A DNA stretch of 57,618 nt from a virus. The translations under genes and the position numbers were made by a program. Numbering within the stretch: the stretch's first letter is position 1; each line of letters starts with the position of its first letter. The stretch spans positions 1 through 57,618 of the IMG/VR virus record IMGVR_UViG_3300006916_000056. The stretch is one strand, 5' to 3'. Shown here in pieces: positions 1,894 to 37,340 of this stretch. The notes below the pieces were generated by a model that saw only the letters and a list, made by a program, of their open reading frames with translations, had not been told where the DNA came from and made no database searches.

Positions 1894-1898
1894 TTTTA

Positions 1899-4700: not shown

Positions 4701-4710
4701 TCATCACACC

Positions 4711-8111
<3,401 letters not shown>

Positions 8112-8127
<16 letters not shown>

Positions 8128-8420
8128 ACATCGAAGGATGCCCCTCTTTCGTGGTCATTGAACCGGATAAAGGGTTTATCCTCGTTTCTATTAGATAACT
8201 TTTTGCCACCAAGCATGGAAATTAGAAACTCACGTGCTGCTTCTTCTGTTCCTGTCCTGTCTGGCATAACGTATTCTGCTCCTTCGTGAAACACAACCCA
8301 CATGCCGTCGTCTCTCTTCGTAAGATGAATACCACTATGCTGTCCAGACACGGAAGAGTTCGTAAAAGCCAACATTTCAGTGCGATTATTAGCACCAGTC
8401 TGAGACCATGTTAAGACCAT
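8112..8420 (-). CDS. Hypothetical small protein, fibre operon
   Basis: This 102-aa protein has no recognised family. It contains [15 protein letters not shown], then a strand-turn-strand [11 protein letters not shown], and ends in FDVWQVK. The LTW...DG-W-VF pattern is shared with the neighbouring 116-aa protein, so the two are probably distant paralogues with a small beta-rich fold. It overlaps both neighbours by 10-16 nt, which implies translational coupling. Position suggests a fibre-attachment or fibre-chaperone role, but this is inference. Confidence 0.75.
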
Positions 8421-14152: not shown

Positions 14153-14725
14153 TTATTGCCATCTAGGTCCTTCTATCCATCCAACCAAAGACTTTCGGTG
14201 TCCACTGGTAATAGGGGTTACGTAGTGTTCATGGTACGAAGGGAATACTATGATTGACCCTTTCTTTGCTAGGTCTATTGGAGCAGGTGAAGCAGTATGA
14301 GAGAATCCTAATTCTCCACCTTCGTATTCATCGGGGTCAGTCAATTGTATAACCACGCTTAATTTCCTATGGCGACCATCTTGTCTCATGTAGTCAATAT
14401 CGTGGTGTGAATCATAATGATGTCCAACATCTGAATACTCTGTAAATTGTAGCGGTGGTAATGTGGAAACCGAGACACCGAAGTGTTGGTTTGCTGCCAT
14501 AGCATATTCCCAAACTGTGTTATGTAATTCCTTGTAAACGTCATCGTTTGGAATCCATCGAATATCGGTTTTCCTATGTCCATCATTCTCATCGTCGCCA
14601 TCGTCTCCAGTTCTGAAAGTAGACGCTTTTTGAACAGGAAGTTTTACACACTTCTCAACCCATCCATCAATAACATCTGATGGAATAGCCTCAGACCACA
14701 TTAACCATGCAGGGTGTTTCATCAT
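14153..14725 (-). CDS. 2-oxoglutarate/Fe(II) oxygenase, prolyl-4-hydroxylase-like
   Basis: This protein of about 190 aa shows the 2OG-Fe(II) facial triad. H107 and D109 lie in YDSHHDID, the distal His is near 167 in HEHYVTP, and R177 in GHRKSLVGW would bind 2-oxoglutarate. The order and the GGELGF and TP..SGHR segments match PiuC/P4Hc-type hydroxylases. The substrate is unknown: nucleic acid, protein, or the Pro-rich collagen-like fibres of this virus. It begins next to the stop of the Sak4-like ATPase gene, so it shares that promoter. Two ATGs (14725, 14722) are possible. Confidence 0.87.
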   Translation of the reverse strand: MMKHPAWLMWSEAIPSDVIDGWVEKCVKLPVQKASTFRTGDDGDDENDGHRKTDIRWIPNDDVYKELHNTVWEYAMAANQHFGVSVSTLPPLQFTEYSDVGHHYDSHHDIDYMRQDGRHRKLSVVIQLTDPDEYEGGELGFSHTASPAPIDLAKKGSIIVFPSYHEHYVTPITSGHRKSLVGWIEGPRWQ

Positions 14726-19112: not shown

Positions 19113-19441
19113 TCCTCTTCATCCCCCATTATGATAGATGCTCTTTTGCTTATAGTAGCATATCTTTGAATGTCCTCACGTGTACTTATCCAATCGTTAT
19201 GAGAATCAACAAGCCTCTCCCAGAATAACTCTCGAAAACCTATCCACTCTATCCATGCTTTATTCTTGACATAACCATGTTTTTGATATTGTCGATTGAC
19301 TTTACTCCAAAGAGCCTCGGCAGATTTGTATAACGGTTCTCCGTTTTCATGCATAACAAAACACATTATCTCTCTCTTTCTTTTCAACTCATTGATGAAA
19401 TCTGGATTTCGTTTTTTGAATACCAACTGTTTCTTATTCAT
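19109..19441 (-). CDS. Hypothetical basic protein, helicase operon
   Basis: This protein of about 110 aa starts MNKKQLVFKKRNPDF and is rich in Lys, Arg and Trp (EALWSKVNRQYQKHGYVKNKAWIEWIGF). The family is unknown, although the composition fits nucleic-acid binding. The ATG at 19441 gives an ATGA overlap with the stop of the helicase gene. The longer frame to 19495 would run deep into the helicase gene and is rejected. Confidence 0.72.
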   Translation of the reverse strand: MNKKQLVFKKRNPDFINELKRKREIMCFVMHENGEPLYKSAEALWSKVNRQYQKHGYVKNKAWIEWIGFRELFWERLVDSHNDWISTREDIQRYATISKRASIIMGDEEE

Positions 19442-21177
19442 CCTACGTGTCTCCTTAACCATGCGGGCATAGGTCCGATATTGTTTCTGAACCAAGCAGG
19501 TAGCATACCTGCATTCATCCTTTGGAATCTAGCCCACGAAGAATCCAAGATGAATATTTGACCCTTATCTTTTGGTGAACGTACTATTCTACCTGCACCT
19601 TGAACGATAGTCAACGCAGTTTGAAGGTTGTACCATTTCTTACAAGGAGCGGGACAACTGAACGAACCACACATCCCATTACTATACTTACTAGGTGGCT
19701 CGTATGGACAATCCTCAGTGCCTTCATACTTTCTCCGCCATGCATGTTCGTCTTCTGTCAATCGAGTCGATATAACAGGGTCTATAACAGGTAAATAGGG
19801 TACTTTACACAATACCAACCACTCGGCTAGTTTACCTTTGAAGTCAAACCCCTCATTGACATAAGTCGAGATTAAAACTAAGTTGTTTTCTTTACTTGTC
19901 ATGAAATAATCAATGGCTGAATCTCGACCCCCTGCATCTGAATCGTGAGTTACAACTCGGTCTCCGTAACCTGCTGCTCTCAAACCTTCAACTATGCCCT
20001 TCCTTATGTAATGTGTATGAGGTAAAACGACACCACGCTTGTTCGGATATTTTTCCATTATTCCGATTATTGCTTTGACTTGTTTTGGAATAGTTGCATC
20101 TCTCTTCGAGTATGACATAGAGCCAACGGGAGCATAATGAATGTTGAAGCAATCTTTGGGGAATGGACTTTCGGTAATGTTGATGTAGAGAGTTTTCTGG
20201 TCCTCAAGTCCCATAGAATGAAGGTACGTATCTACGTCAAGTATAGTAGCAGACAAGAAGATTCTTTTTCTCGCAACTGAATCAAGCATGTCAACTGCAT
20301 AATCACGAACCCGAACTGGCTTGAACTCAACAAACCTACCGAATCTTGTCTTATCCATTTTGACAACCACGTTATCCGGTTGTTGCAGAAGTGTGAGAAT
20401 CGTAGTTCCTTTCTCTAAGATACTACGGAACGCCTTTATCTTTACATCATCTTCTTCATCCTCGGCAGCCTTGAGGTGCATATCGCAAGACTTCACGAAG
20501 TCCTTTACATCATCAAGCCAGTCGGCAGGGTGATAGTGCATTGGAAAGTTCCATTTTGGACCATGTACTTTTTGCCAGTCTTTCTCTGATATTCTAGTGC
20601 CGAGAAGGTCAAGAAGAAATCCTTCCATCCTGTGTGCCTCATCTATAATAGCGAAGTCTCTTTGTTCAAATCTTTGGTCGCCCTGTATTACCCTAAACAA
20701 ATAAGCCGGATTGGATAGGGTGATTCGTGCGTCAGAGGCAGCGAACTTTTGTTCGTAGTAGGGGCAGGGGTCGGTCTCTTTCGAATGTGGACAAGAACCA
20801 CCTCTCTTCGTCCAACAAGGAGCACCGTCAGCAGTACCACTCTTCACCCAACAAGGAAAATTGGAGCGACCCCTCACTTCTTTCACAACATGACCGTAGT
20901 CGGCAAGATACTGGGTTGCGAGGCCGAGGCTCGGAGTCAATAGATAAGCAGACTGAAACTGTGCTTGAACGGTCATGGCTATGGCTGATTTCCCTATTCC
21001 AGTAGGGGCTTGAATAACTATGTTGTCAAACTCATCTTTCTTCAATGCGTGATAGATAACTGATAATGCTTCATTCTGAAACTTTCTAGGTGAAGGCATT
21101 GGAAAATCCGGTTGTATCTCATCCCAAAGATTTGGAAGTTTTGATTTGCTTGGAATGTTGATTCTCACGACGGCCAT
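19438..21177 (-). CDS. XPD/DinG-like iron-sulfur superfamily 2 helicase
   Basis: This 579-aa protein has Walker A APTGIGKS at about 57-64, DEAH at 179-182 in FAIIDEAHRME, motif III LSATILD, and motif VI QGAGRIVRSPKDKG. Between motifs I and II, Cys at about 109, 121, 129 and 138 (CW, CWTKRGGSC, DPCPYY) form the 4Fe-4S domain of XPD/Rad3 helicases. A second Cys group (CPYEPP...CGSFSCPAPC) lies near residue 500. It should unwind DNA 5' to 3' in repair or replication restart. It leads a three-gene unit from a class-2 promoter. Confidence 0.9.
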   Translation of the reverse strand: MAVVRINIPSKSKLPNLWDEIQPDFPMPSPRKFQNEALSVIYHALKKDEFDNIVIQAPTGIGKSAIAMTVQAQFQSAYLLTPSLGLATQYLADYGHVVKEVRGRSNFPCWVKSGTADGAPCWTKRGGSCPHSKETDPCPYYEQKFAASDARITLSNPAYLFRVIQGDQRFEQRDFAIIDEAHRMEGFLLDLLGTRISEKDWQKVHGPKWNFPMHYHPADWLDDVKDFVKSCDMHLKAAEDEEDDVKIKAFRSILEKGTTILTLLQQPDNVVVKMDKTRFGRFVEFKPVRVRDYAVDMLDSVARKRIFLSATILDVDTYLHSMGLEDQKTLYINITESPFPKDCFNIHYAPVGSMSYSKRDATIPKQVKAIIGIMEKYPNKRGVVLPHTHYIRKGIVEGLRAAGYGDRVVTHDSDAGGRDSAIDYFMTSKENNLVLISTYVNEGFDFKGKLAEWLVLCKVPYLPVIDPVISTRLTEDEHAWRRKYEGTEDCPYEPPSKYSNGMCGSFSCPAPCKKWYNLQTALTIVQGAGRIVRSPKDKGQIFILDSSWARFQRMNAGMLPAWFRNNIGPMPAWLRRHVG

Positions 21178-22036: not shown

Positions 22037-23848
22037 CTACTGAACACTTAATCCGGCGGCCATCCTCATGGTTGCCGCTATGTCTGATGGTTGTTTTCCG
22101 ACTGTTAATGTCATACTAGAGTCGTCAGTTGAAAACTCCCAAGCGATTGAAAATAATTCTTGTCTACCCGCTAGACTACCGTCAATTGATGCGAAGTCCA
22201 TTATATCTCCCGCTCTCAAATCAAATCGTTCTGGAAGACCTTCTACTATCCATTGACTGTACGCAATTCCTTGTCTCATCAGTATTTGCCTACCAAGAGT
22301 TTCAGCGTGTGCAACTGTGGTAACGCTAGTATCTTTGATGTACCGATGAACAGGTCTTTCACTTGTCAATGAGACAGTCGCACTAATGTCTAATTCTTCA
22401 TTTTCAACAGTAACTTTGTTGAAGAAGTCATCATCGTTTGTAACTCTCTCAATCATAGTTGGATAAAAGTCGAGAGGAACAGTAGTCTTTGGAACACGAC
22501 CCGCTGTGTAAGGGGTGAAGTTAGAATCGTGAAGTTCTTTTTTCTGGGCTACGTGAATGTAACCATAAGCGTCTGCGTAGATTTGATATTGTATCGGTCC
22601 AGAGTTCACAAAACTCAGCAGAGTTTGAATCGCTGCTAATCTCGTCTTACCCTTGAACTTCAAACCAGTTGGTAAAGTAAATTGAAAGTCAGAGATGATG
22701 CGGGCGATAGGTGGGTTGTAACTGGAATTGGCGATTATACTTTTAATTATAGTAGCAATGTTTCCATTTGCATGTGCAGGTTGTTCGGTGATATATTCAT
22801 TCGTCAAGAAACCCAGTGCATCAAGACAAGTCAATCGAATACTATCAGATGTTTCTTCAATCCCTGCTACATAGCCTGTGAATATCAATGGTGGATTAGA
22901 CCACATTCGTGGTGCTAAGTAAACTTGAATCGTTTCTCCAACTTCTGCTATGCCGCTCCTTCGACCCGCAACGGATGATATGTTGATTGTAATTTGTCGT
23001 GGTGTGTTCAAGTCATCTTTTGAAGAAATTGACTTGACACCATGTAAGGGTCTAATTCCATTAACTAATACAACAGGTGTCTTTGGCGTTGCCTCATCTT
23101 CTGCTATCTGCCCGTATATTGTTCGTCCCAAAACTTGCCTTGACCTAACGAAGTAAACCTTGTGAGGCCAGTTGTTTCTTAGATTACCTAATTGAAATTG
23201 TCTCGGTCTATTCATCCATTGTAGACCTTCTGGATTCCAACCGCCGTTACTGTAACCCAATTTTCCTAGATTGAATGTTGGGTTTGGTAAAACTGATGTT
23301 GGATAGTTGCCTTCGGTCGGTCCTGTTGTAAATGCAAAACCGCCACGTGGTCCACCGCCACGTCTGCTTGTCAAATCGTATTGGTCTGGGAATAACGACG
23401 CAGATGCGTAGAGATAACCGAAGCCGTCAGTTGCCCCGGTGTAGCCGTTGTGAAGATGAGGGTCGAATGGTTTTGGTGATGCAAGATTAGTATAACAGTA
23501 AGTTGTTGGTCCACCCGTCGTCCATTGATTTGAAAGAGCAGTCATCGTATTTGGATGTGGGATTAAACCGAGACCGAAGTCTGCTGGATAATGAGCGGGT
23601 CTGTTAATATCTTCTTTATCATTGACGGTCATAGCGTGTTCCGCTACCGTATCTCTTGCTCTGTAATTCAACCACTGAACTTCAGCCCATGTTCGAGAAA
23701 CGAATCGAGCAATCGCCGTCCTCGGTCTTCGTGGGTCTTGCCCTAATTCCTCAACGAAATCTTTGAGATTATCCGGCGGAGTAATGACAAACTCATCGTC
23801 AATAGGGTCTCTAACGATGCGAACATACCGCTCGGCCTCATCATCCAT
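22037..23848 (-). CDS. Tail hub / baseplate protein
   Basis: This protein of about 603 aa has an unrecognised N-terminal half that is Gly/Pro/aromatic-rich (LTSRRGGGPRGGFAF). From about residue 290 it has a barrel-like part resembling the gp27/gpD hub family (GIAEVGETIQVYLAPRMWS, FTGYVAGIEETSDSIRLTCLDALGF). The C-terminus (FDLRAGDIMDFASIDGSLAG) also fits hub proteins. It would join the tail tube to the fibres. The start is set at the ATG at 23848 (MDDEAERYV), 26-27 nt from a TAAATAA box. The longer frame would overlap the groES promoter and gene. Confidence 0.68.
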   Translation of the reverse strand: MDDEAERYVRIVRDPIDDEFVITPPDNLKDFVEELGQDPRRPRTAIARFVSRTWAEVQWLNYRARDTVAEHAMTVNDKEDINRPAHYPADFGLGLIPHPNTMTALSNQWTTGGPTTYCYTNLASPKPFDPHLHNGYTGATDGFGYLYASASLFPDQYDLTSRRGGGPRGGFAFTTGPTEGNYPTSVLPNPTFNLGKLGYSNGGWNPEGLQWMNRPRQFQLGNLRNNWPHKVYFVRSRQVLGRTIYGQIAEDEATPKTPVVLVNGIRPLHGVKSISSKDDLNTPRQITINISSVAGRRSGIAEVGETIQVYLAPRMWSNPPLIFTGYVAGIEETSDSIRLTCLDALGFLTNEYITEQPAHANGNIATIIKSIIANSSYNPPIARIISDFQFTLPTGLKFKGKTRLAAIQTLLSFVNSGPIQYQIYADAYGYIHVAQKKELHDSNFTPYTAGRVPKTTVPLDFYPTMIERVTNDDDFFNKVTVENEELDISATVSLTSERPVHRYIKDTSVTTVAHAETLGRQILMRQGIAYSQWIVEGLPERFDLRAGDIMDFASIDGSLAGRQELFSIAWEFSTDDSSMTLTVGKQPSDIAATMRMAAGLSVQ

Positions 23849-23870
23849 GTTTATACAGGGCAAACTAAAG

Positions 23871-23880
23871 TTATTTACCG
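23871..23880 (-). promoter_or_regulatory. TATA box of the tail hub gene, minus side of divergent promoter
   Basis: The minus strand reads CGGTAAATAA, about 26.5 nt before the ATG at 23848. It lies back to back with the plus-strand groES box eight bases away. Confidence 0.65.
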
Positions 23881-23885
23881 TATGC

Positions 23886-23893
23886 TTAATATT
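23886..23893 (+). promoter_or_regulatory. TATA box of groES-groEL, plus side of divergent promoter
   Basis: TTAATATT is centred 26.5 nt before the GTG start of groES at 23916, so the mRNA is predicted to start at the GTG itself. Confidence 0.65.
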
Positions 23894-23915
23894 ACACTTA
23901 GGACTCGAACCGTCT

Positions 23916-24182
23916 GTGAGAGTTTTAACACCGACAAAAGGATATGCTCTAGTTAAGCGTTGGATGCCCGAACAAACAACAACAAGTGGAATAGTTATAC
24001 AAGACGAAGCAGCGTCGTATGGCTTTGGAGTAATAGAAGAAATTACTCCTTTTAGTAAAGAAAGTGAATACAAAAAAGGAGATGTTGTTTTGATAGAAAA
24101 AGACTGTGGGACTTCACTACAGTGGAATGGAAATATTTGCTTGATGGTTAAAATAATGAATATAATAGGGGTGATTGAATGA
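23916..24182 (+). CDS. groES: GroES-like co-chaperonin
   Basis: This 88-aa protein matches GroES. VLTPTKGYALVKRW is the first strand pair. TTTSGIVIQD is the mobile loop whose hydrophobic tripeptide (IVI) would dock on GroEL. GFGVIEEI and YKKGDVVLIEKDCGTSLQWNG form the rest of the barrel. It caps the GroEL cage. The start is a GTG placed exactly at the leaderless distance from a TATA box. A longer frame from 23763 runs antisense into the hub gene and is rejected. It overlaps groEL by 4 nt (ATGA) and is on the strand opposite to almost every other gene. Confidence 0.88.
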   Translation: MRVLTPTKGYALVKRWMPEQTTTSGIVIQDEAASYGFGVIEEITPFSKESEYKKGDVVLIEKDCGTSLQWNGNICLMVKIMNIIGVIE

Positions 24183-25753
24183 AGAAGTCAATATATGGTG
24201 AAGAAGCAAGAGAAGCATTAATGAGAGGAATAAATGAAGTTGCCAATTCAGTTAAGCCAACATTAGGACCTGCTGCTAGAACTGTAATACTAGAAAGACA
24301 ATATGGCTCACCTGTTGTAATTAATGATGGTGTTACTATTGCTAAAGACATTGATATGAAAGAAGACCCATATGCGAATCTAGGTGTACGTCTTATTCAA
24401 GAAGCAGCGAGTAAGGCTCAAGATAATGCAGGGGATGGAACAACTACCGCCTCTATCCTAACTCAATCATTATGCAATAAAGGATTAGTTGAAATGAAAA
24501 CAGGTCGCAATCCAATACACATTAAGAAAGGATTCGATAAGGCAGTTGAGATAGCAGTTAAGTCAATCGAAGATGCGGCTTCCGATGTTGACGACACGTC
24601 TTTGATTCATGTAGCAACAATAGCAGCCAATAATGATGAAGCAATTGGTTCTCTGATTTCACAAGCATTCCAAACAGTAGGAAGAGATGGGATTGTCTCG
24701 ATTGAAGAATCGAATGGTCTCGATACGACGCTAGAAATTGTTGACGGACTTGAGTTTACTAAGGGGCTACTTAGTTCACATTTTATTACCGACTCGGAAA
24801 AACAACAAACGACGATGAAGAAGCCTTTGATTTTAGTAACTGATGAAACTATTCGAACCGCTCAAGAAATTGTTGATGTTCTAAATTATGCAGTAGAGAT
24901 GAAAAGACCACTTTTGATTATCGCTACCAAGATGGAAGGTGAGGCTTTGGCTACGCTCGCCCTTAATGCTTCACGTGGTATCTTAGAAGTCGCAGCAGTA
25001 GAAGCACCTTCATTTGGTAATTCACGTGAAGAAATACTCACCGATATTGCTACGGTTGTAGGAGCAGTTCCGATTTTCTCCAGTAAGGGAATGTCAACTC
25101 AAAGGAACGGAATAGAATCTTTAGGTGGTGCGTCTTCAATCTCATGTTCGATGAAGAAAACAACAATAGTTGGTGGTCGTGGTACAGAGAGTGATATTCG
25201 GAAAAGACAAGAAGCACTTATCGCTCAATCGAAAGACGCTGAAACTGATTGGGAAGCAGAGGCATTGAGAGCAAGAGCAGGTAAGATTTCCGGCGGTGTT
25301 GCAGTATTACACATCGGTGGTAAGACCGAGGCAGAGATGAAAGAAAGAATCGCACGTGTAGATGATTCATTGAACGCTACTAGAGCCGCTTTACAAGAGG
25401 GGATAGTAGTAGGTGGCTCTATCATGTATCTACGTGCTAGAGATGAGATACTAGATGCCTCAGACGACCATGAAGGCGACGAATGGCTAGGTATGATGAT
25501 GGTACATGATGCACTAGCAGAGCCGTTTCATCAGTTGTGTTTTAACGCAGGGGTTGATGGTTCAGAGGCACTAGAGCAGGTCATAGAAATGAATGACTCT
25601 AACTACGGTCTAAACGCCAAGACTTTGGAGTTTGGAGACCTTATTGAACAGGGTGTTATTGACCCTGCCAAGGTTGTCAAAAACTCACTGGAGACAGCCG
25701 CTTCGATTGCAGGGTTAGTCCTAACAACCGAAGTGCTTGTCGCAGAAGTCTAA
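24179..25753 (+). CDS. groEL: Group I (bacterial-type) chaperonin GroEL
   Basis: This 524-aa protein is clearly group I, not the archaeal thermosome. It has LGPAARTVILERQYGSP, INDGVTIA (Asp 50, the ATPase Asp-52 site), AGDGTTTAS (D87 region), EGEALATLALNASRG, VAAVEAPSFG and DDSLNATRAALQEG (the Asp-398 site). It lacks the Gly-Met tail of bacterial GroEL. It forms a folding cage with the adjoining GroES. Likely clients are the virion proteins around it, such as the capsid or the giant tail proteins. Its stop overlaps the convergent 153-aa gene (shared CTAA). Probably acquired by transfer from bacteria or bacteriophage. Confidence 0.96.
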   Translation: MKKSIYGEEAREALMRGINEVANSVKPTLGPAARTVILERQYGSPVVINDGVTIAKDIDMKEDPYANLGVRLIQEAASKAQDNAGDGTTTASILTQSLCNKGLVEMKTGRNPIHIKKGFDKAVEIAVKSIEDAASDVDDTSLIHVATIAANNDEAIGSLISQAFQTVGRDGIVSIEESNGLDTTLEIVDGLEFTKGLLSSHFITDSEKQQTTMKKPLILVTDETIRTAQEIVDVLNYAVEMKRPLLIIATKMEGEALATLALNASRGILEVAAVEAPSFGNSREEILTDIATVVGAVPIFSSKGMSTQRNGIESLGGASSISCSMKKTTIVGGRGTESDIRKRQEALIAQSKDAETDWEAEALRARAGKISGGVAVLHIGGKTEAEMKERIARVDDSLNATRAALQEGIVVGGSIMYLRARDEILDASDDHEGDEWLGMMMVHDALAEPFHQLCFNAGVDGSEALEQVIEMNDSNYGLNAKTLEFGDLIEQGVIDPAKVVKNSLETAASIAGLVLTTEVLVAEV

Positions 25754-26211
25754 GCCATAAGTGAAGCCAATTCTTGCACGCTTATTGTGTGGCCTTCATA
25801 CGGTGGGTTAGCGATAGGGTCGAACACCCAAGCGTCCTCGTCTCGATAGTCAGCAGTCCAACCACAGCCTTCGATGTGGCAGAGTGTTGATACTACGAAC
25901 TGATGCCATACGTTGAAACTACCAGACCATTTTTCACCTTCGTGGTCGCGGTGATTCCAGATAACAGTTTCATTAGGGTTAGTGTGGTCGGAACATACCC
26001 AAGATGCAGGGCGGTCGTCGCACCAGTCAGCCCAGTGTTCTAAGACAGTCATACCGCAGAAGTAAACATGGTCGTCTCTAACTTCGGCTCTTTCAGAGCG
26101 GCCAAAATGCTCTAATGAGATATTTAACTCTCTAACGATGTACTCAGCGTACGTCTCGCCTTCTTCTTTCTTTCCTTCTCTTCGTGTCTGCCAGTATTCT
26201 CTTGCTTCCAT
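25750..26211 (-). CDS. Hypothetical accessory protein under a class-1 promoter
   Basis: This 153-aa, acidic, Trp-rich protein has several Cys and His (FCGMTVLEHWADWC, VCSDHTN, LCHIEGCGWTADY) that might form a zinc site. The family is unknown. It is a single-gene unit that sits convergent to groEL and downstream of the giant tail gene, with its own leaderless class-1 promoter. Confidence 0.78.
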   Translation of the reverse strand: MEAREYWQTRREGKKEEGETYAEYIVRELNISLEHFGRSERAEVRDDHVYFCGMTVLEHWADWCDDRPASWVCSDHTNPNETVIWNHRDHEGEKWSGSFNVWHQFVVSTLCHIEGCGWTADYRDEDAWVFDPIANPPYEGHTISVQELASLMA

Positions 26212-26267: not shown

Positions 26268-29200
26268 CTAAAACCCATGACGGTTAGTAGTACCACTCAC
26301 AGCATCTTGGTCGCCTATGCGGGTTATCAAAGCCCCACTCCAAGGCCAGTACAAAGACGACCCTGCATGTGGAGTTCTGTACCAAGCCAATGGGTTAGTC
26401 GTCCAAGCCAAGTCTAGGTCTGCCGCATTATGTCCCCAGAATCTTTGGTAACGTAACTGTGGTGCATCGTGAGTGAAATCCTCACTACCTGCAAGAGTTT
26501 CAGCCGCACCTAGTATAGTCCATTCAGTCCCGTCAGTCTTTACTGATGGAACAGATAGCCAACGAACATTCATAGAACGGATAACATTCTCATCAGCAGT
26601 AGCAGCATCAAACTCGAAAGAAGGAAGCCATATCTCCATGAAGTGTGAGCGTTGTGTCCATACACCGGATGTACCTGCAATAGTCATAGGTGATGAGTCA
26701 ACTACTGCGGGCCAACTAAGCGGTGCAGCACCGTCAACTTCTGGAGTAGGCACTGTTGTATATTGTAGGTTACTACGCCATCTAACGACGATGTGAATAT
26801 TCCCATTTCCATTAGTTGTCATTGTCATGTCGGATATATCGAATGGGTCGCCGGAGATTGGATGAAAAATATGTTTTACAGTCTTTGTTGTTGATGACAA
26901 TACGTCTCTAGCATTCATGGCAGTTATCATTACATCGTTAGCAGCAATGTCATCGACTTTACTTAACCTACAGACTACATATATCCTATCTTCTTCGTTT
27001 ATGATTGCATCATACCAGTCGCATACATCAGCATCATTTTCATGTAAGTAAAGTGGACTTCCGAAAGTATGCACTGTGCCAGAGCCTAAGTCGCCTTGAC
27101 AAGCATACACTTTAGCATTCGCAGTGTTGTTATCTTTTCTAAAGAAGATGAAAGGAATGTCGTCGCCCCTAAGAGCCAACTTAGGTGAGTCTATTCTACC
27201 TGATGTCGTGTTGTCAACTGAAACCCATCTTCCATCATCCCAAGTTGTTGGACTACCGCTCGGAAGTGCAACCCAACTTGCATTCGGTTCTTTGATTGAA
27301 TAGACGACTGAATATTCTGAGGCACTCTCCCGGTAATGAACCGCAGACAAGTGAAGCCTGTCCTTAGAGTCGCATACTAAAGTCGGTTGCATCATGTTAT
27401 CTCCAGTGGTGTATGGATTGTTAGTTGCTGAGATGTTGATTGGTGTAACAGTCGTCCAGTCCCACTTATACACGTGGTCCGGTGAAGATGCGACTATGTT
27501 TCTAGTTGCATATGTATAGAAGAGTCTGCGTATCGGTGCGCCTGTTATACTAGCAGAATCATCCCTTGCTACTTCGATAACAGCGTGTATTGTTCCTAGA
27601 CTATCTGAGGCGAATGCTGCTCCGTATATCTTATCATTAGTGTCAAGCGCAGAACTACCTATCTCTGAAATAAGTAGGACTTCATCAAGACCAGTTGTTG
27701 TTGCACCAAGTTGTTCGGCGTGTCGATTCCAGAATAAATCTGAACCCGGTGGTTTGGTGTAATGTACGTACGTAGGTTGATTCCCTCGGCTTGCCTTAGT
27801 CGATGGAGCAATTGTAAATTGATGCAATGTCCCATCGGGTGTTCTCAATATTCTTTGACCCTTGCCAAGATAGCCGTCAGTTGCTCCGGTAGCACTCGCA
27901 CTGTCATTCATTTCTTTTCTATTCGCAGTAACATTACCCTGTGAGGATATTATTCCTGTTGCATTGACTATACTACCACTATCCCAATATGGTCTTACGT
28001 GATTAGATACGTGTACCTCGACTGATGATTTCAATTGTTCAGATACAGCAACCCAGTCCTTCTTACTAAGTTCCTGTGCTCTAGCCAATGTTACATGTGG
28101 ATAACCGGCAGTGTAGACTTTATCCCAGTCGTAATCACTGCCTGTCATAACAGGGATAGCCCCTGCGTGGAAGTGGTCTGTTGGGTGATTAAGCCAGAAT
28201 GCAGATAAAGAATTACCACTTACGAATGGGCCACCCATTAACTCATTTGGTAATAGAATATCATTGTAAAGAACATTACCACTGTTAGTTGTTCTCCTTG
28301 CTGTATCAGCCCATAGATTAGTGCGTAAGTAAGATTGACCGATAGTCCCACCATCACCTGCTGCATCAAAACCAGATAACAAACCTGCCGCACCTTCTAA
28401 GTGAAGGGTGTCCGTTCTTGAGAATGGAGTTTCAAGTTCTAAATCAAGAGTTCCTTTTCCACCTGCTCTAGCCCGGACGTGAACTTGACCGGGTGCAAGT
28501 AGATGTAAAGGAATGTCGTAGCCTAGACCAGCGTGAACCTGTTTCCAAGTTCTATCAGTTCTGTACGGGTGTGCTTTAGATGAAAGACCATAATGAAGAG
28601 GGCCGAAATGTGAGAACCCACCGAGAGGGCCGACTAATTTTCTAGCAGCATTTGTTGATAGTAAGTCTGAGAATGGTGCGTCAGTGTCGCCCTCTGAATA
28701 CGACGTAGTGTCATAGGAACGTGTGTTATACAGAGCCGCAGGGAAAGCCCACCCATTGAACCCAAACTCGCAGAATGGACTCGCAGATGAGCCGAAATCA
28801 GCAAAACCAATGGTTGTAGGAATGAACCTAGTCTTTCTCAAATGTTGGTATCTATCAACAGCCCAAGCATCTATTCCACTTTTCTCTGTGGTTATGTCGT
28901 CATACCCAAGATAAGAAACACGGTCAGTCATTTGTCTGTAAGGATAACCATGTAAAATAGAACCATCACTTAGTATGTGAGGGAGACACTTAGGTAAGAC
29001 CGCATGAGAACAACGTCCTTCTGGATATGAGCCGTAAGTAATCGGTATCGCCCTTTGTGCTGATTCGGGAAACCAATAAGCAATTCGAGAACCACTCCAC
29101 CACGTATCATCTTCTATCCAGTTTTGTGTTCCTTTACTAGCCCCGTCAACTGTTGAATATTTGATGTCGAACATTGCCTTACCTTCACGCACCCTGCCAT

Positions 29201-31709
29201 TCTTTGCAGGGGTGTCCGACCATAATAGAATCAGACTTCTTGCACTTGAGTTAGCAACCATCTGCCCCCAAGGTGGAACAGCACCGAAGTTTGTTCCAGT
29301 GTAGTTGTTCGTACTGCCGAAGTTCAACACTGGCTCTGGATGCTGTAAAACAGCATCACCAGTGCCGCTAAGTGGGTCGCTCTGTTCATCTTGTATCGGG
29401 TTGCATGTTTTAGCAGCATCATCGTAATAGAAACCCGGCGGGCATGGATTGGAAAAACCATCGGGATTCCAAGGCCAAGGGTTAATGTCGGGACTCGGAT
29501 ATTCCCCAGTATTACTTATCATATCTCGGTGAATCGCAGCCATCATCATCTTTCCATCTTCCATGATTCGCAATGACGAACAATGTATTGTCGGATGAAG
29601 CAACGATTCTGCGTAGGATGTGTGGTCCGGGTGTTTGGCCCGGTCTTTTCTCTCTTGACCTAAGTATCTCATTAGTTCGACTTGAGGAAACACCCAATCA
29701 TGGATAGTCCATTGATACATATATTCAGAGATAGAAATGCCAGTTCTAGCATCGAGAGATTCAGACTTACCCACTAATAGATTATACAATGGATTGTCTG
29801 TTGCTGTGGTAGCATCTTCGGTGTATAGAGCGTCATTGTTGGCTGTCCACTTGAATAGTAGTAGTTCGCTGCCTCTAGGATTACCTGCTGCTCCACTGCC
29901 CCCGTCAGCCCATACTTGGCCGTTACCCCAAACTGCCGAGTTGAAGTCCGATGCGTCGATAGCATCTGCCCCTACAAGCAACTCTCCACCGTAAGCATCT
30001 GCGTCCCATAGATGTGAAATGCCACCTTGTTGATAGAATCCACCCGGCTCTATTGTTCCACATAACTTTGGTATTCTCGCCCATGATGGATTTGCTAAGG
30101 GTCTGAATGGTGTCATCTGATGTAACCCCCATGCAGATTGTGTTACTTGTTTTGATTGGGCCGTAGTTCCTAATTTAACGCCTGTAAGTGTTGGGTCGAG
30201 TCTGAATATAGCATGATATATTGTTACACTATCTTCAGAATAGTTTGCTGGAATGTGAGACTGGGCTAATGTTGGTGCGCCTCTTGTATAGTCAACTGTC
30301 CCACTTGCTCTAACCGTTTTCGGGGTATTGACAACTGATACTAGAATATGATAGTCAACAATTGGTTTTCGAAATGCAACCCCCTCGATTGTTACATCTT
30401 CATAACGAAGAATCGAAGGAACAACTTTAACACGGGTCGGAACTTTATCAGCAAGGAAGGTTGAGGAAATTGCAGTTGTCTTAGACCAAGCACCTGTTCC
30501 TGTTATGTCTCCATATATTCTACCACTAGCCTTAGATTGAACAGATGTTCGACTGCTGATTGTTTGAGTTCCAAAAGCCGTACTAGGAGCGGTTCTAATG
30601 TTTCTTCCTGTCATAAATGTAGTTTGATTGTCATTGGTATCTCCAGACTTCCCAGAGCGTCTAGCAGCAGTTCCTAGTGCTTCTTGTAGTGGAAATATAG
30701 GCGTACCGTCTGTGTAATTATATCGTGAACCAGTGGCTAAGGTAGAATCGTTATACCACTTACCATTTCTTAGTAGAGTTTGACCCGAATGAACTTGAAC
30801 ATTCAACCCAGAATATGTTTCATCGTTTTCATCCTCTGGCACACTATGAAACGCAGTAACAACTAACGCACCTTCGTAGCCAACAAGACCGCATGAATCG
30901 ACGACAACATGATTGCCTCTTTCAACTGCACCAATAGAATATGGTAAAGCATCACTGTCTTCAATAACTCTCGGTACTTGAATAGTCGAATAGTTAGTCA
31001 GAATGTTAGAAGTTTCAGTAGCAGATTCAGTGCTTGTTGGGGATGTTAACGATGTACCACTAGCCAATACGGTTTGTCTTGCACCCAAGTTAATCCCCCA
31101 GTATGAAGAAGTTGGTCCACTCTCTTCGGCTCTATCAAACATAGCCATATCACTTACCGATTTATCTGAGCGGTCTGCTACGAAACCAATGACTGAATAC
31201 GCAGTGTTGTGAAACGAGCCGAATGAAATCCCAAGTCCGTTCGATGGAACAACTGTTGCTGCGTAATGAGCGATATTCAAAGGAGCACCGTTAGTTGTAG
31301 TTCTACCCAGAGTCAACTGATTATCTGTGGCAGGGATTGAAGTTGTATCTCTCTTGATAGAAAAAGTATGGTTAGCAGGTTGATTACCTGTTTCAGTTCT
31401 TCTACTGTGCGCCCCGAACCTACCTGCTTCGGTGAAAGTCATGACTGTTCCCGAAACTGAAACACTTGTTGCTGAGGCATCATGATGAGAACCTGTTACT
31501 GTTACACCTTCTATTTGAGACATCTCCAACCAACCCATTTCACTGTTCAAAGATGGGGGAGAAATGTTTAGCAGTAAGTCGTTTGTTGTAGGTGGTTGTG
31601 AAGGAGAGAATGTGTTTCGAAATGTACCTGTTGCATCAACAATAGATGTCAACGGTAAGCCCGGTTCTGCACCAACTGGCGGTCTCATATCGACTGGGGA
31701 ATAAGCCAT
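26268..31709 (-). CDS. Giant tail protein with BNR/propeller-like repeats
   Basis: This 1813-aa protein starts MAYSPVDMRPP and is rich in Gly, Ser, Thr and aromatics, with little helix. Repeats such as DSLGTIHAVIEV, DSKDRLHLSAVHY, EEDRIYVVCRLS and NGNGNIHIVVRW in the last third resemble the Asp-box/BNR strands of sialidase-type propellers. One PPGFYYDDAAKTCNP segment may be a small disulfide or metal site. It is probably a distal tail or host-binding protein. It follows the 1875-aa gene by 3 nt, in one long tail operon. No enzyme active site could be identified. Confidence 0.75.
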   Translation of the reverse strand: MAYSPVDMRPPVGAEPGLPLTSIVDATGTFRNTFSPSQPPTTNDLLLNISPPSLNSEMGWLEMSQIEGVTVTGSHHDASATSVSVSGTVMTFTEAGRFGAHSRRTETGNQPANHTFSIKRDTTSIPATDNQLTLGRTTTNGAPLNIAHYAATVVPSNGLGISFGSFHNTAYSVIGFVADRSDKSVSDMAMFDRAEESGPTSSYWGINLGARQTVLASGTSLTSPTSTESATETSNILTNYSTIQVPRVIEDSDALPYSIGAVERGNHVVVDSCGLVGYEGALVVTAFHSVPEDENDETYSGLNVQVHSGQTLLRNGKWYNDSTLATGSRYNYTDGTPIFPLQEALGTAARRSGKSGDTNDNQTTFMTGRNIRTAPSTAFGTQTISSRTSVQSKASGRIYGDITGTGAWSKTTAISSTFLADKVPTRVKVVPSILRYEDVTIEGVAFRKPIVDYHILVSVVNTPKTVRASGTVDYTRGAPTLAQSHIPANYSEDSVTIYHAIFRLDPTLTGVKLGTTAQSKQVTQSAWGLHQMTPFRPLANPSWARIPKLCGTIEPGGFYQQGGISHLWDADAYGGELLVGADAIDASDFNSAVWGNGQVWADGGSGAAGNPRGSELLLFKWTANNDALYTEDATTATDNPLYNLLVGKSESLDARTGISISEYMYQWTIHDWVFPQVELMRYLGQERKDRAKHPDHTSYAESLLHPTIHCSSLRIMEDGKMMMAAIHRDMISNTGEYPSPDINPWPWNPDGFSNPCPPGFYYDDAAKTCNPIQDEQSDPLSGTGDAVLQHPEPVLNFGSTNNYTGTNFGAVPPWGQMVANSSARSLILLWSDTPAKNGRVREGKAMFDIKYSTVDGASKGTQNWIEDDTWWSGSRIAYWFPESAQRAIPITYGSYPEGRCSHAVLPKCLPHILSDGSILHGYPYRQMTDRVSYLGYDDITTEKSGIDAWAVDRYQHLRKTRFIPTTIGFADFGSSASPFCEFGFNGWAFPAALYNTRSYDTTSYSEGDTDAPFSDLLSTNAARKLVGPLGGFSHFGPLHYGLSSKAHPYRTDRTWKQVHAGLGYDIPLHLLAPGQVHVRARAGGKGTLDLELETPFSRTDTLHLEGAAGLLSGFDAAGDGGTIGQSYLRTNLWADTARRTTNSGNVLYNDILLPNELMGGPFVSGNSLSAFWLNHPTDHFHAGAIPVMTGSDYDWDKVYTAGYPHVTLARAQELSKKDWVAVSEQLKSSVEVHVSNHVRPYWDSGSIVNATGIISSQGNVTANRKEMNDSASATGATDGYLGKGQRILRTPDGTLHQFTIAPSTKASRGNQPTYVHYTKPPGSDLFWNRHAEQLGATTTGLDEVLLISEIGSSALDTNDKIYGAAFASDSLGTIHAVIEVARDDSASITGAPIRRLFYTYATRNIVASSPDHVYKWDWTTVTPINISATNNPYTTGDNMMQPTLVCDSKDRLHLSAVHYRESASEYSVVYSIKEPNASWVALPSGSPTTWDDGRWVSVDNTTSGRIDSPKLALRGDDIPFIFFRKDNNTANAKVYACQGDLGSGTVHTFGSPLYLHENDADVCDWYDAIINEEDRIYVVCRLSKVDDIAANDVMITAMNARDVLSSTTKTVKHIFHPISGDPFDISDMTMTTNGNGNIHIVVRWRSNLQYTTVPTPEVDGAAPLSWPAVVDSSPMTIAGTSGVWTQRSHFMEIWLPSFEFDAATADENVIRSMNVRWLSVPSVKTDGTEWTILGAAETLAGSEDFTHDAPQLRYQRFWGHNAADLDLAWTTNPLAWYRTPHAGSSLYWPWSGALITRIGDQDAVSGTTNRHGF

Positions 31710-31712
31710 TCA

Positions 31713-34700
31713 TCATGCCCCCAGACCTGCTTCTCTAACGAATACCGCAGTGTAAGGTGTCTGCCCTACATTGCCGCCTTGACGTTGATAGTTGAATGAA
31801 ACCATTCTTCCTACAAAGGTCTTGTTAGTTGCCTGTCCAGAGAAATTAACTGCTTCATATTCAAACTCAACCAATGCACCGCTTTGTAACAACTCTTCCA
31901 TAAACTCAATATCAGTATTCTCAGTTTCTTTAAGGAATATTCCTTGCATTTCAAACTCATCAACTCTCTGCCCTCGGTCAGTTACTTCGGGATAAACAGC
32001 ATCTAAGACTGGAGTTTGTGTAAAGGTAGCAACCCTTCGTCTGCTGAAAGATGAAGGCTTTGTATTCAATGTTAATGGGATGATTAGTGTTGCAGGTAAT
32101 ACTTTCACAACTACCTTAGCAACAGCCGAAGATGTGCCGTTAGAATCCACGACAACAAGTGTAGCAAGGAACTCACCCGCTTCTGCATAAGTATGGTCGT
32201 TATATGACGTACCACTAGAAACAGCAGATGAACCGTCTCCGAAGTTAAAAGTGTAAGTTGAAAGTGAAGCCGATGAATTAATCGAATACGAAGAAGATGC
32301 GTCGAGGCGAATTGCTTGTCCCGCTCTTACCATTGTTGGTATTGCTCTAAGGATAGCAATAGGTTCGGCATTTACAATAGTGTAAGTTATCGTAGGGTCT
32401 GAAGCAACTGATTCATTACCCACATCATCTTTGACATACGCTTTTACGTTTCTTGTTCCAGTTGTTGTTGTATAAACATACGATATATCTTGAGTTATAC
32501 TTGTCGCAGGGGTTTCTACTTTTACCCATCCACTATCTGTCCCGTCGCCATACTCAACCTTAAACTCAGAGATGGTGCGGTTTTCATCTGTTGTAGCACC
32601 ACTCACTCTGAATGTTATCACATGTCCTACCTTTGTTGCGAATGTAGTGTCTGAATCCTCAACAACACTTGTCGCAGTGCTGCCGTCATATGAGTTTGAA
32701 ATAACTGCTATATCGACTGTCGGCTTCTCATCATATTCAACGTCCCATGAAGTAACATAAGGAATAGCAGACCAGTCGATAGGATGTAGTAAGGTATCAG
32801 AAACGGAAGGTATATAAAAGTTAAACCTCACGACGAAACCATTAGCGACCACGCTGCTTGGCAAACCAGTCAAGTCCAGTGTTCCTATTCCACCAGTATA
32901 ATCTAATTCTCGGTCTATGAATCCATCTATTGTTGTAGAAGCCTCTTGGTCTATTGTAGCAACCACTGGGGGTTCTAGTAAAGTAACTCTAACGTCCATC
33001 CCTTTCGCCTTGTCTATATTCCTAGCATAGATATTCAGTTTAGTATATCTTGCTACCGTTGTCGAAGGTTGTTGTTTAATTGAATCAACTGTAAATGGTA
33101 GCATACTGTCTGTTGGTAATTGACGTAATGTCATAGAGTCGATTTGTAAATCTTGATTCGACTTCTGCAAAGTTGGATTCGTCAACCGGGTTATCTCACC
33201 ATTCGAGTCAAGGAAGTCCGTAGGGTCGGCAGGTACGTGTAAAAGAGTTCTAGCGGGATATTCTGGCTCGAAATAACTTGTTTGTGTGAAACCATTCAAT
33301 GATGTAATCGGAATTGAATCGGGTGTGATTGGCTCTCCTTGTAATGACACAAAAACATGATACGTTGCATTATTAACCCAAGTAGGTGGACTACCCCCTA
33401 TCGTGAATATGTATGTAGCACTACCCACGTTGATAGATAAAGTTCCACTGGACTCAGTGATGACTTGTTTGCCAATTGTGAATGGTGTCCCTGCAAAATT
33501 GTCAGAGGTAAATACAACAAACTGTGCTTCGGTTGCCGTTAAGTCAGTTAGACGGGCAATCATAGCGGCATTCAATGTAGAGTCAGTATCGAAAGCATAA
33601 GGTGTACTAACGCTCCTAGAGAGTGAAGTCCCCGATGTAGCATATGTCATTTCACCAAGGTAAAGAGTGTATCTTGCACCTTGATGTTCCGTAAAAGCAA
33701 CTCTATCGTCTCTGTTGTAATCTCTTGTTCCAGTGTGCATTACCGCAGGGTCGCCTTCGGCCCAGTGGTTCGCCCAGTGGTCGGTTGAATTAGATGGATG
33801 AGCGATTGGAGTTCTCACTGGGAATGTTGCTATGTCGCAAGATTTGATTGACATGGCCCATACTGGAGTTCTACATGATACATCAGTTCCAACAACTTCC
33901 CCATTCCAAAGGAAAGTCATTCCCTTTGTATTAAAGACTGTCCGTAATGTGTTAGTGCCTTCAGAGAATGTGAAGTAATTTGAAGTTCCAAAACCATTTC
34001 CTAACCTACCAAACCCACCAGTGCCGGGTAGGTTGTATGTATCATCTCCATCAAGGTCAACGAATCCAGTCCATGTTCCACTTGTTGTCAAGTGTGGTAG
34101 CCCACCAGTCATCCATACTGCGGGTCTATTGTATATTGAAGAAGGTGGATAGGCATTATCAGCCTTAACACGTGCATACCTGTTCTTTACGTCAAACACC
34201 CCCACATCTGCTGATTTATTACCAGTAGCATTAGGTGTATGATTCCAAAATAATCTCTTCATATTATGTAGGCCGGGTACAGTTTTCACTGTTCCGGCAG
34301 TCACCGCTACATCGTCTGAATCAAAATAACCACTACGGAAAGGACCGGCATTCTCACCATTATGTTGGGCGGTTGTTAACCTAGTGTAGAATCTCTTATC
34401 ACTGTTAGTTGGGATAGTCAATGCAGTTCCACTCACTGATGTTGGGTCAGTCAATTGAGATATACCGTCAATATTCCCGTCCCAAATAGGCTCTAACCCC
34501 ATACCATAATTATGAGCAGGGGTGTCCATAACCATAGAATGTCTGCCGAATACTGGGTGTTCTTCATTACCATCAAACTCAACCATAATCATTCTATTTG
34601 GTCTAGCGGGGAAGAACGCAGTAATCTCAGCGTCAAGATAAACCGGAGATGCGGCCATCTCTGAAAGTCCATACTTAGTAGTTGAACTTCTAGCCGAGAC

Positions 34701-37340
34701 GACATCTCCCGACACACTCTCTGTCCAAGTTGCAGAATGGTCAGTGCTACGTAGCAACGTAGGACTCATAGATAATCGAGTACCAAGTCTTTCGTGTCCG
34801 GGCCAAGGACGATTTCTACCATACGTCCAAGTTCCACTTGTAGTAAGAGCAGTTCCCACTGGCTTAATGTAATCCCATGCTCGACGGCCAGTGTTAGTAT
34901 CAGTATAAGACCAGAATGGTGTACTTACACCTCGGAACAACCACTTGTCATGACCATACTCACCATTCAGTCTAGGAAAACCACTATCGGCTCTCAATCT
35001 ATCATTATAGTTGCCGCTTACAGTAATGTATCTATCCGATAAATCATACCCCAATGGAGACGGAATACGTAAAGCACCATCACCTTCATTGTATGTATTC
35101 GGAGCAGATAATATCTTACCATCGACATCTTTAGTGACTATACCAATTGAACGTAACACAACTTTTCCATCTCTATGTTTTCCATCAACTGAGGGTAAAC
35201 TTCTCTCACCGATTGTTGGTCTACCGGGGTAAGTTGCATCTACGGAACTCCTTGCCGGAACATTGCTGTCCATTTGTGAAACACCAATTTGAAATCCTGT
35301 TCCAAGTTCTGAATGCGAAGGACTTCCTTCGGCGTTAGCATCTCTCTTCTCAATTCCAAAGATATTCCCTGCTGTTGCATTGTCATCTGCATCGGGAGTG
35401 TGAAAGTATTTCTGTTCTGAACCACCCACCATGCCCCTTCTTAGGTAAGCATCACCTCTATTGAATAAGATAACTTCATTCAAATCCGTTCCTGTTTCAA
35501 ACAATGCAGTCTTGAATGTAAACGCAACAAAAGAACGAGTTGTCCCGCCATAACCATTTGCTATTGTTTGACCCGACTTATCATACATACCTGCCGGAGC
35601 ATCGGCGGCTTGCCAATCCGCGTCTGAATTGCCCGTAGTTATTGTAGCATCAGCGTTAGTTATCCACCAACCGTTGTAGGAGCGTCCTACATCAGTGGAG
35701 TCGTCTGAATCCTCATAAGTATCTGAACCATCTTGATTACCTCTCAAGCCCCATCTATCGGGCCATAGTTTTCTTTCTGCGGTTGGGAATGTTGCTTTGT
35801 TAGTAGTTCCAAAATTATTTGCGTTATTATTTTCTAAATAAATAGGTGTCCCCGCAGGTAGAGCAGTATCTTCAGTGGTGTCCATGTGGTCGCAAAACAC
35901 GGTGATTAACGACCCCGTTTTCTTCATTCCTAAGATTGCCATTCTATGAGGCGGTGGAGCAATAATTGTGTTCAACACACCATTTGCATTTGTAGTGGTT
36001 GTATGCCTAGCAGTCATCTGTTCGTTGGTCCAGTTGTTGCCTTGAGCAGAGGGGGCAAGTGGTCCTTGAGTGAAGTCAAAGAATGGGAATATCTGAGCCG
36101 AGCAATCATTTGTCTCAAGGTAATCATTTGAATAGTAAGTAGCATCATCCTCACTGCCGTAGCCGTGTAATCCATCCCATATAGAATAGAGTGTGCTTGT
36201 TGTCGTTCCACCAATATGTCTTGTTTGGTCGTAGACATAAGGAACAATTACACCATCATTCAATGAGTAAGTGCCGTCTTTGAGAAAGCAAGCCAGTGCC
36301 ATTTTCATTCTATATTTTGGTGAAGGCACTGCTGTTGAATCAAATGATTGAAAATAATTACTGTTCGGTAAATTAGCATGAAGGTTAGCATGAAGGAGAC
36401 CCGTCAAGTGGTCTCCAGACTTACCGAATACTTTGTATTTTATTGTTGAAGAATCAAGACCACTTGGGTCAGAGTCATATCTAGTAATTCCATTAGGAAA
36501 ATACTGTGCTGATGTTGACCCATTTCTTATACCACTTGATACTTTTATTGTAGCACCGGATATGTCTTTATGAAACTGATTAACGTCAAGCAACATTGGA
36601 TGGAAAACAGTTGCTCTGTAAGGAGAAGTTGCAGGTATGTCAGCATGGCCGAATGCAGACTCACTGTTGGTATCTACCATCCATTCAATACGAGGGTCAG
36701 CCCCATGTACAGGGTTAGCACTTGTCGCACTTACATGACTGTCTCTACCTTCGACCCCATGTGGTAAGAATGAAGGCTTACTTGCATTGAGTTGACCGAT
36801 ATGACGGTAGTCATCAATAAACTCGGTGAGTTCTTGAATTGTCATAAAGACTGGATATGGACCGTTACTTCTTGTATGCTCAGTGCCTACACCAACCTCA
36901 CCCTGCATTGGGCTTGTTCTCTTCTCAGCAGTATAGTCATTATCATACAAACCAAATGAATCAGTGGGTGCAGATGTTGGAGCAATGAGAAAGACTGATG
37001 TCTTAGTAGAATCAGCATGAGTAAGCGTACAGATTGGCTTGAAGCCACCAGAGCCAGAGATAGTAAGAGTTGGCTCTATCCCTGCGGGGTCGGTTTCCGT
37101 CCCTGCATCTGTTCCATTATCATTGATTGCTTCAACTCGAATACCGGGTGTATTGGCAACGTCATCTACGAGGCCGCTTAGAGACGGTGTTGTAGGTCCG
37201 AAGTTTGAGCGGAATATCTGAGGGTCAACGGTTAACCCACCGTCGCCTTTTACGTATGCGGGCCACATAGGTTGAAGTTCGGCAAGCCCGTTCTTGATAC
37301 GAGAGAAAGGCTTGTCAATATTCTGTGTTGAACGTGCCAT
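31713..37340 (-). CDS. Giant tail protein with PKD-like domains
   Basis: This 1875-aa protein has a long beta-rich N-terminal part of unknown fold. Toward the C-terminus it has at least two PKD/Ig-like domains, one with EFKVEYGDGTDSGW and DVGNESVAS, the next with YTFNFGDGSSAVSS and HTYAEAGEFLATLVVVD. The last 120 residues (VTDRGQRVDEFEMQG, FVGRMVSFNYQRQGG) look like a distal-tail attachment domain. It probably forms part of the tail tip. It starts where the tape-measure gene ends (1-nt overlap). Its size matches the next protein (1813 aa), but I see no clear sequence identity between them. Confidence 0.78.
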   Translation of the reverse strand: MARSTQNIDKPFSRIKNGLAELQPMWPAYVKGDGGLTVDPQIFRSNFGPTTPSLSGLVDDVANTPGIRVEAINDNGTDAGTETDPAGIEPTLTISGSGGFKPICTLTHADSTKTSVFLIAPTSAPTDSFGLYDNDYTAEKRTSPMQGEVGVGTEHTRSNGPYPVFMTIQELTEFIDDYRHIGQLNASKPSFLPHGVEGRDSHVSATSANPVHGADPRIEWMVDTNSESAFGHADIPATSPYRATVFHPMLLDVNQFHKDISGATIKVSSGIRNGSTSAQYFPNGITRYDSDPSGLDSSTIKYKVFGKSGDHLTGLLHANLHANLPNSNYFQSFDSTAVPSPKYRMKMALACFLKDGTYSLNDGVIVPYVYDQTRHIGGTTTSTLYSIWDGLHGYGSEDDATYYSNDYLETNDCSAQIFPFFDFTQGPLAPSAQGNNWTNEQMTARHTTTTNANGVLNTIIAPPPHRMAILGMKKTGSLITVFCDHMDTTEDTALPAGTPIYLENNNANNFGTTNKATFPTAERKLWPDRWGLRGNQDGSDTYEDSDDSTDVGRSYNGWWITNADATITTGNSDADWQAADAPAGMYDKSGQTIANGYGGTTRSFVAFTFKTALFETGTDLNEVILFNRGDAYLRRGMVGGSEQKYFHTPDADDNATAGNIFGIEKRDANAEGSPSHSELGTGFQIGVSQMDSNVPARSSVDATYPGRPTIGERSLPSVDGKHRDGKVVLRSIGIVTKDVDGKILSAPNTYNEGDGALRIPSPLGYDLSDRYITVSGNYNDRLRADSGFPRLNGEYGHDKWLFRGVSTPFWSYTDTNTGRRAWDYIKPVGTALTTSGTWTYGRNRPWPGHERLGTRLSMSPTLLRSTDHSATWTESVSGDVVSARSSTTKYGLSEMAASPVYLDAEITAFFPARPNRMIMVEFDGNEEHPVFGRHSMVMDTPAHNYGMGLEPIWDGNIDGISQLTDPTSVSGTALTIPTNSDKRFYTRLTTAQHNGENAGPFRSGYFDSDDVAVTAGTVKTVPGLHNMKRLFWNHTPNATGNKSADVGVFDVKNRYARVKADNAYPPSSIYNRPAVWMTGGLPHLTTSGTWTGFVDLDGDDTYNLPGTGGFGRLGNGFGTSNYFTFSEGTNTLRTVFNTKGMTFLWNGEVVGTDVSCRTPVWAMSIKSCDIATFPVRTPIAHPSNSTDHWANHWAEGDPAVMHTGTRDYNRDDRVAFTEHQGARYTLYLGEMTYATSGTSLSRSVSTPYAFDTDSTLNAAMIARLTDLTATEAQFVVFTSDNFAGTPFTIGKQVITESSGTLSINVGSATYIFTIGGSPPTWVNNATYHVFVSLQGEPITPDSIPITSLNGFTQTSYFEPEYPARTLLHVPADPTDFLDSNGEITRLTNPTLQKSNQDLQIDSMTLRQLPTDSMLPFTVDSIKQQPSTTVARYTKLNIYARNIDKAKGMDVRVTLLEPPVVATIDQEASTTIDGFIDRELDYTGGIGTLDLTGLPSSVVANGFVVRFNFYIPSVSDTLLHPIDWSAIPYVTSWDVEYDEKPTVDIAVISNSYDGSTATSVVEDSDTTFATKVGHVITFRVSGATTDENRTISEFKVEYGDGTDSGWVKVETPATSITQDISYVYTTTTGTRNVKAYVKDDVGNESVASDPTITYTIVNAEPIAILRAIPTMVRAGQAIRLDASSSYSINSSASLSTYTFNFGDGSSAVSSGTSYNDHTYAEAGEFLATLVVVDSNGTSSAVAKVVVKVLPATLIIPLTLNTKPSSFSRRRVATFTQTPVLDAVYPEVTDRGQRVDEFEMQGIFLKETENTDIEFMEELLQSGALVEFEYEAVNFSGQATNKTFVGRMVSFNYQRQGGNVGQTPYTAVFVREAGLGA

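Follow-up and report, generated by a model that had tools for sequence, protein, structure and literature searches.

A group I GroES-GroEL pair with a shortened roof and tail in a tailed virus, probably of marine archaea

The chaperonin locus and its products

The stretch of DNA analysed here (hereafter the window) is a viral record of 57,618 bases with 43.6% G+C. Its groES and groEL genes are the only clear plus-strand genes within a long run of minus-strand genes. The features that matter for the argument are the following:

22037-23848, minus strand: 603-aa conserved tail-region protein flanking the cassette, start at 23848, without named family
23849-23915, between the divergent groES (plus) and 603-aa gene (minus): intergenic region of 67 bp, aligned in six relatives
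23916-24182, plus strand: groES, GTG start, 88 aa, mobile-loop motif TTTSGIVIQD (Pfam Cpn10, PHROG 3188, AlphaFold/Foldseek)
24179-25753, plus strand: groEL, 524 aa, ATP-site residues all kept, without the GGM C-terminal tail (TIGR02348, comparison with E. coli)
25750-26211, minus strand: 153-aa protein, convergent with groEL, without Pfam or PHROG match
26268-31709, minus strand: large protein of 1813 aa (197 kDa), tail region by position, flanking the cargo slot, without named family
31713-37340, minus strand: large protein of 1875 aa (204 kDa), placed in the tail region by position; a PKD domain (PF18911, 6.7e-15) lies close to its C-terminus
37340-39982, minus strand: tape measure protein (phrog_1533, 7.6e-53; PF10145, 5.3e-31)
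47272-48336, minus strand: major capsid protein, 38 kDa (PF05065, 1e-10)

The groES stop overlaps the groEL start in an ATGA, and the GTG start of groES is kept in six relatives. A longer antisense ORF (22037-24073) overlaps groES, its most likely true start being the ATG at 23848, which gives the 603-aa protein. The initial annotation had recognized at 23916-25753 a complete bacterial-type pair, with its own GroES and opposite in strand to its neighbours, in the middle of the tail operon of a virus with archaeal-type replication genes. Every element of this description holds except the position: the cassette does lie beside the tail genes (the tape measure gene, then those of the large proteins), but at their boundary with replication and repair genes (helicase, 19438-21177). 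The archaeal-type genes comprise ERCC4/XPF, PrimPol-like and XPD-type helicase genes in the window, and PolB and an RFC-type clamp loader in a longer relative. The GC3 of groES and groEL is below that of most neighbours. PDB profile searches of the conserved flanking and replication-region proteins returned nothing useful beyond the PKD domains.

The viral GroEL matches PF00118 (E 3e-62) and the NCBIfam GroEL model TIGR02348 (E 2e-173) with 577.6 bits, which is 4.5 bits short of the strict cut-off of that model (582.1) yet well above the cut-offs of four GroEL subfamilies. Solved group I chaperonins are matched with up to 465 bits. The thermosome, the usual group II chaperonin of archaea, has a built-in lid and uses no GroES; it is a distant homologue of the viral GroEL, which scores at best 95.5 bits against thermosome models, compared with 578 against GroEL. 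The ATP/Mg residues (D52, D87, T89-T91, D398, D495) and the hinge glycines (G192, G374, G375) are identical to those of E. coli GroEL, and the GroES-binding groove is still mostly hydrophobic, with the changes Y199L, Y203H, L234V and V263A. Since the ATP-site and hinge residues are all kept, an active ATP-driven machine is to be expected.

By sequence, the evidence for GroES is weaker than that for GroEL. Nevertheless, the Pfam Cpn10 match lies above the gathering score (27.8 bits, cut-off 21.1, E 2.7e-6) and the PHROG match is to co-chaperonin GroES (E 2.5e-8). The AlphaFold model has a mean pLDDT of 68 and is disordered at residues 19-33, the site of the mobile loop; with this model, Foldseek retrieved GroES structures at a probability of 1.00, and viral co-chaperonins as well. 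Both the beta-barrel and the mobile loop of a Cpn10 protein are thus found, and the viral groES-groEL is an intact group I chaperonin pair.

Distribution among related viruses, and the host

The same GroEL (88-100% identical) occurs in ten IMG/VR loci of close relatives, with groES upstream in all of them. The longest of these relatives, G006 (82.8 kb) and G007 (80.7 kb), show the same gene order as the window; in addition, G006 carries PolB, an RFC-type clamp loader (RFC-S) and other genes absent from it. Searching outward from this group by terminase (72-78% identity) and PolB (49-61%) yielded about 50 further virus records, and none of these sisters holds a chaperonin of group I or group II, while the control genomes were all positive; nor was a thermosome found in them as a substitute. 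Because many of the records are fragments, only the five long ones (78.3, 80.6, 81.4, 81.5 and 81.7 kb) weigh strongly. In the sisters, the slot is bounded by a gene for a large protein on one side and by the counterpart of the 603-aa gene on the other; it holds other genes, a methyltransferase in two cases, and nothing in it corresponds to the 153-aa protein next to groEL. The chaperonin pair thus looks like an accessory cassette of one subclade, for which the simplest reading would be a single gain in the ancestor of that subclade. A clade with the pair next to sisters without it, both with homologous capsid and tail genes, offers a natural comparison of the role of a private chaperonin.

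Other rearrangements were seen among the sisters: in G043 the terminase gene (6811-8328, minus strand) runs against its neighbours, and in G058 a glycosyltransferase block (26901-29188, minus strand) is inverted, so that strand-flipped modules occur in several of them. One PolB relative, IMGVR_UViG_2786546787_000011, bears a contig name that suggests an origin in a genome project and not in a metagenome, and its source might reveal a host of this virus group.

The virus is probably a tailed virus of marine archaea. The best full-length phage-database matches of the G006 PolB are haloarchaeal tailed viruses (HVTV-1, E 3e-48), and a match over most of the length fits an archaeal virus. Judging from gene content, the host is most likely marine group II (MGII, Poseidoniales). 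No CRISPR, tRNA or integration link to a host was found, and the window and its near-full relatives contain no tRNA genes that could serve as a clue. Three genes reported in magroviruses (PMC10160649) recur here: those for a CobS-like and a CobT-like protein in G006, and that for a 2OG-Fe(II) oxygenase in the window. In G006, the CobT-like VWA protein gene lies near that of the CobS-like AAA ATPase (L034, 1298-5772, minus strand); the oxygenase gene of the window (14153-14725, minus strand) lies amid replication and repair genes.

Aoguangviridae, i.e. the magroviruses, have genomes of 90-100 kb, with an exemplar of 31.5% G+C, and GroEL/GroES is listed for them by the ICTV (2023, PMC10768690). 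As far as the published description allows a comparison, our viruses resemble them in being tailed dsDNA viruses that combine a bacterial-type GroEL (and GroES) with archaeal replication genes of the PolB type. They differ in size and composition, the longest relatives measuring 80.7 and 82.8 kb (contigs that are possibly incomplete) and the window having 43.6% G+C, and in that the pair is confined here to one subclade, with sisters that lack it. The replisome of Aoguangviridae/Magrovirales consists of virus-encoded PolB, clamp loader, primase, MCM and ligase; we found PolB and RFC-S in G006 and the PrimPol-like gene in the window, and identified neither MCM nor ligase. Because the contigs may be incomplete, the order Magrovirales is a possible assignment despite the smaller size; we make no claim of membership in Aoguangviridae.

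The presence of a group I chaperonin in such a virus, which the initial annotation had singled out, is already on record: Nishimura et al. (2017, PMC5332604) described group I GroEL in 20 MGII-virus genomes and a chaperonin of that group in MGII hosts as well, and the ICTV lists it too (PMC10768690). The contrast that had been drawn with hosts restricted to the thermosome also falls, since MGII genomes are reported to carry both chaperonin groups, with the viral copies grouping with the host ones (PMC5332604). Bacterial-type GroEL is found in other archaea as well, with a GroEL-like match at E <= 1e-60 in 76 of the 381 nanoarchaeal genomes sampled. What the present analysis adds is the accessory distribution, the long stem of the viral GroEL and the trimming of roof and tail described below, in a group of chaperonins, those of marine archaeal viruses, that is known but uncharacterised.

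Trimming of roof and tail, and a proposed mode of action

The roof beta-hairpin of GroES usually has about 14 residues, although this is not universal. The roof segment counts 14 residues in E. coli and in most viral GroES, among which it varies; it is reduced to 7 in the window GroES and to 6-7 in its clade, and T4 gp31 also has 7. The Gly-Met C-terminal tail of GroEL is likewise common without being universal. The viral GroEL lacks it and ends in TTEVLVAEV, 9 residues counted from the TTE motif, which is shorter than in all 110 others compared; Gly-rich tails are present in 40 of these 110 and are variable in viral GroEL.

The two losses tend to occur together. Among 52 GroES-GroEL pairs (viral records and E. 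coli), a short GroEL tail accompanies 8 of the 9 short roofs but only 1 of the 43 long ones (Fisher p 1e-7; p 1.9e-5 without the window clade), although these counts are of sequences and not of independent events. Each trait changes four to five times on the tree, which leaves at most five independent pairs; two lie on supported branches and none is contrary, too few for significance. Most of the isolate phages fetched to widen the comparison have no annotated GroES beside GroEL. In nanoarchaeal cells, GroES roofs are shortened too (15 of the 16 aligned have 10 residues or fewer), yet the GroEL tails are long, so a short roof alone could reflect ancestry. We regard cage enlargement through combined trimming of roof and tail in viral pairs as likely but not proven.

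In phage T4, the folding cage is made larger by gp31 to accommodate the capsid protein. This co-chaperonin resembles the viral GroES in having the GroES fold with the roof hairpin gone at the same alignment position (1g31), but their identity is 16%, and gp31 works with the GroEL of its host, whereas the virus studied here supplies both partners. Complete group I pairs are known from phages of bacteria (Bacteroides phage SJC03, Flavobacterium elemo and immuto phages), although their GroEL is at most about 45% identical to ours; in the elemo phage, the pair also runs opposite to the flanking genes and has a short roof and a short tail. It is tempting to speculate, and no more than tentatively, that viral pairs have been remodelled repeatedly in the same way, losing roof and tails together so as to enlarge the cage for virion proteins, and that this archaeal virus would represent a case outside bacteria, a gp31-like solution within a complete private chaperonin. 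The paired loss does lead to a concrete structural prediction: the cage should be larger, which would connect an archaeal virus with the classic example of T4 gp31.

Because the operon is oriented opposite to the structural genes and is convergent with its downstream neighbour, it would need a promoter of its own. In the alignment of six relatives, the intergenic region contains a conserved core, ACCGTATGCTT; in most of them this is followed by AATATT, a TATA-like stretch some 27 nt upstream of the GTG. Core and TATA-like stretch may together form a promoter suiting a leaderless archaeal transcript, and a scan for sigma-70-type promoters gave no excess over shuffled sequences.

The chamber of GroEL/GroES encloses about 60 kDa. 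Likely clients had been proposed to be the capsid protein and the two tail-region proteins of more than 1800 residues; only the former survives this comparison, since the latter (197 and 204 kDa) are too large to be caged. The 38-kDa capsid protein would thus be the most plausible caged client, and the 55-kDa portal also falls within this limit. The related proposal that virion assembly needs the chaperonin does not agree with the sisters, which have homologous capsid and tail proteins (the capsid proteins being 64-72% identical) and manage without any viral chaperonin. We therefore reject a strict dependence of the capsid protein on the cassette; the pair would be helpful rather than obligatory.

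We thus propose, with moderate confidence, that this subclade carries a functional, virus-encoded group I operon as an accessory cassette. GroEL would form the ATP-driven barrel and the virus's own GroES its lid; with the lid roof halved and the barrel tail missing, the cage would lose material above as well as below, giving a larger chamber in parallel to the action of gp31 with host GroEL on the T4 capsid protein. The clients would be virion proteins that fit, namely the capsid protein and perhaps the 55-kDa portal. The cassette would be transcribed alone from the 67-bp divergent region, opposite to the structural genes, and could thus be synthesized at a different time than its clients, in an MGII host. 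The genes, their integrity and conservation, the accessory distribution and the two trimmings are observations on which this proposal builds; cage size, clients, timing and host are what it would add to them.

Origin of the pair and alternative readings

In the GroEL tree (IQ-TREE, 59 sequences, none from Poseidoniales), the window clade forms one group outside the nanoarchaeal clade (98/99 support) and outside any phage clade. Its stem, at about 2.05 changes per site, is so long that the attachment point is untrustworthy. The nearest relatives outside the clade have 42-47% identity. Among the matches listed, the viral contigs reached contain no GroEL between 47% and 88% identity, and when intermediates were searched for by family pattern and motif, the matches listed belonged either to this clade or to unrelated GroEL of 35-45% identity. 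A genome scan for a host GroEL gave only a distant nanoarchaeal match of 23% identity. Nanoarchaeal GroEL/GroES resemble the viral pair as bacterial-type chaperonins in archaea with mostly shortened GroES roofs, but they reach at most 47% identity, retain the GroEL tails and form a separate, well-supported clade.

The very long stem and the lack of intermediates among the viral contigs reached (among the matches listed) would be accounted for if the pair were an old viral gene set that had long circulated among marine archaeal viruses and was either lost in most sisters or received from another virus lineage, the host copies being derived from the viral lineage or standing beside it. The scattering of both GroEL and thermosome over MGII viruses (PMC5332604) goes in the same direction. 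While this is plausible, we consider it somewhat unlikely: since no close sister sampled has the pair, a single gain is favoured over repeated loss, and magroviruses known from publications to carry GroEL did not appear among the matches listed, so that intermediates may simply have been missed.

A plain capture from the host is an unlikely explanation in our view. The virus would recently have acquired a cellular groES-groEL of MGII that still serves general protein folding, as in the host, when the cell is infected or stressed, and that is not specially tied to virion proteins. The report of group I chaperonin in MGII genomes, with viral copies grouping with them (PMC5332604), is in favour of such a capture, and the accessory distribution, the other cargo at the same slot and the lower GC3 of the two genes fit it well. 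At about 2 changes per site, however, the stem is longer than a recent capture predicts, unless the host gene is equally odd, and the loss of the GroEL tail is unlike the archaeal cell pairs sampled, where tails are long.

It is quite doubtful that the viral chaperonin acts as a single heptameric ring, as has been proposed for the chaperonins of some giant phages. Its inter-ring contacts are altered (K105V/A, A109T, E434G, R452H, V464E), and the change at position 105 is the rarest of these, 100 of 110 other GroEL having K or R there. The positions of the E. coli single-ring mutant are nevertheless poorly conserved, 40 of the 110 other GroEL sharing at most one of them with E. coli, and the signal is weak because these positions vary so widely; the single-ring signature is present, but too common in other GroEL (n=110) to count as evidence.

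Finally, an assembly chimera or cellular contamination, which the strand of the cassette (opposite to all neighbours) and its lower GC3 might have suggested, can be dismissed for practical purposes, since the pair has the same orientation, neighbours and junctions in separately assembled contigs from several metagenomes, and GroEL has diverged to 88% along with the flanking genes.

Near the start of the window, three collagen-repeat proteins (1285-8127, minus strand), two of them with a carbohydrate-binding module family 5/12 domain, are tail-fibre-like, may bind chitin-like glycans and belong to the proteins that vary most between close relatives. A sulfotransferase-family gene next to them (736-1278, minus strand) is kept in G006.
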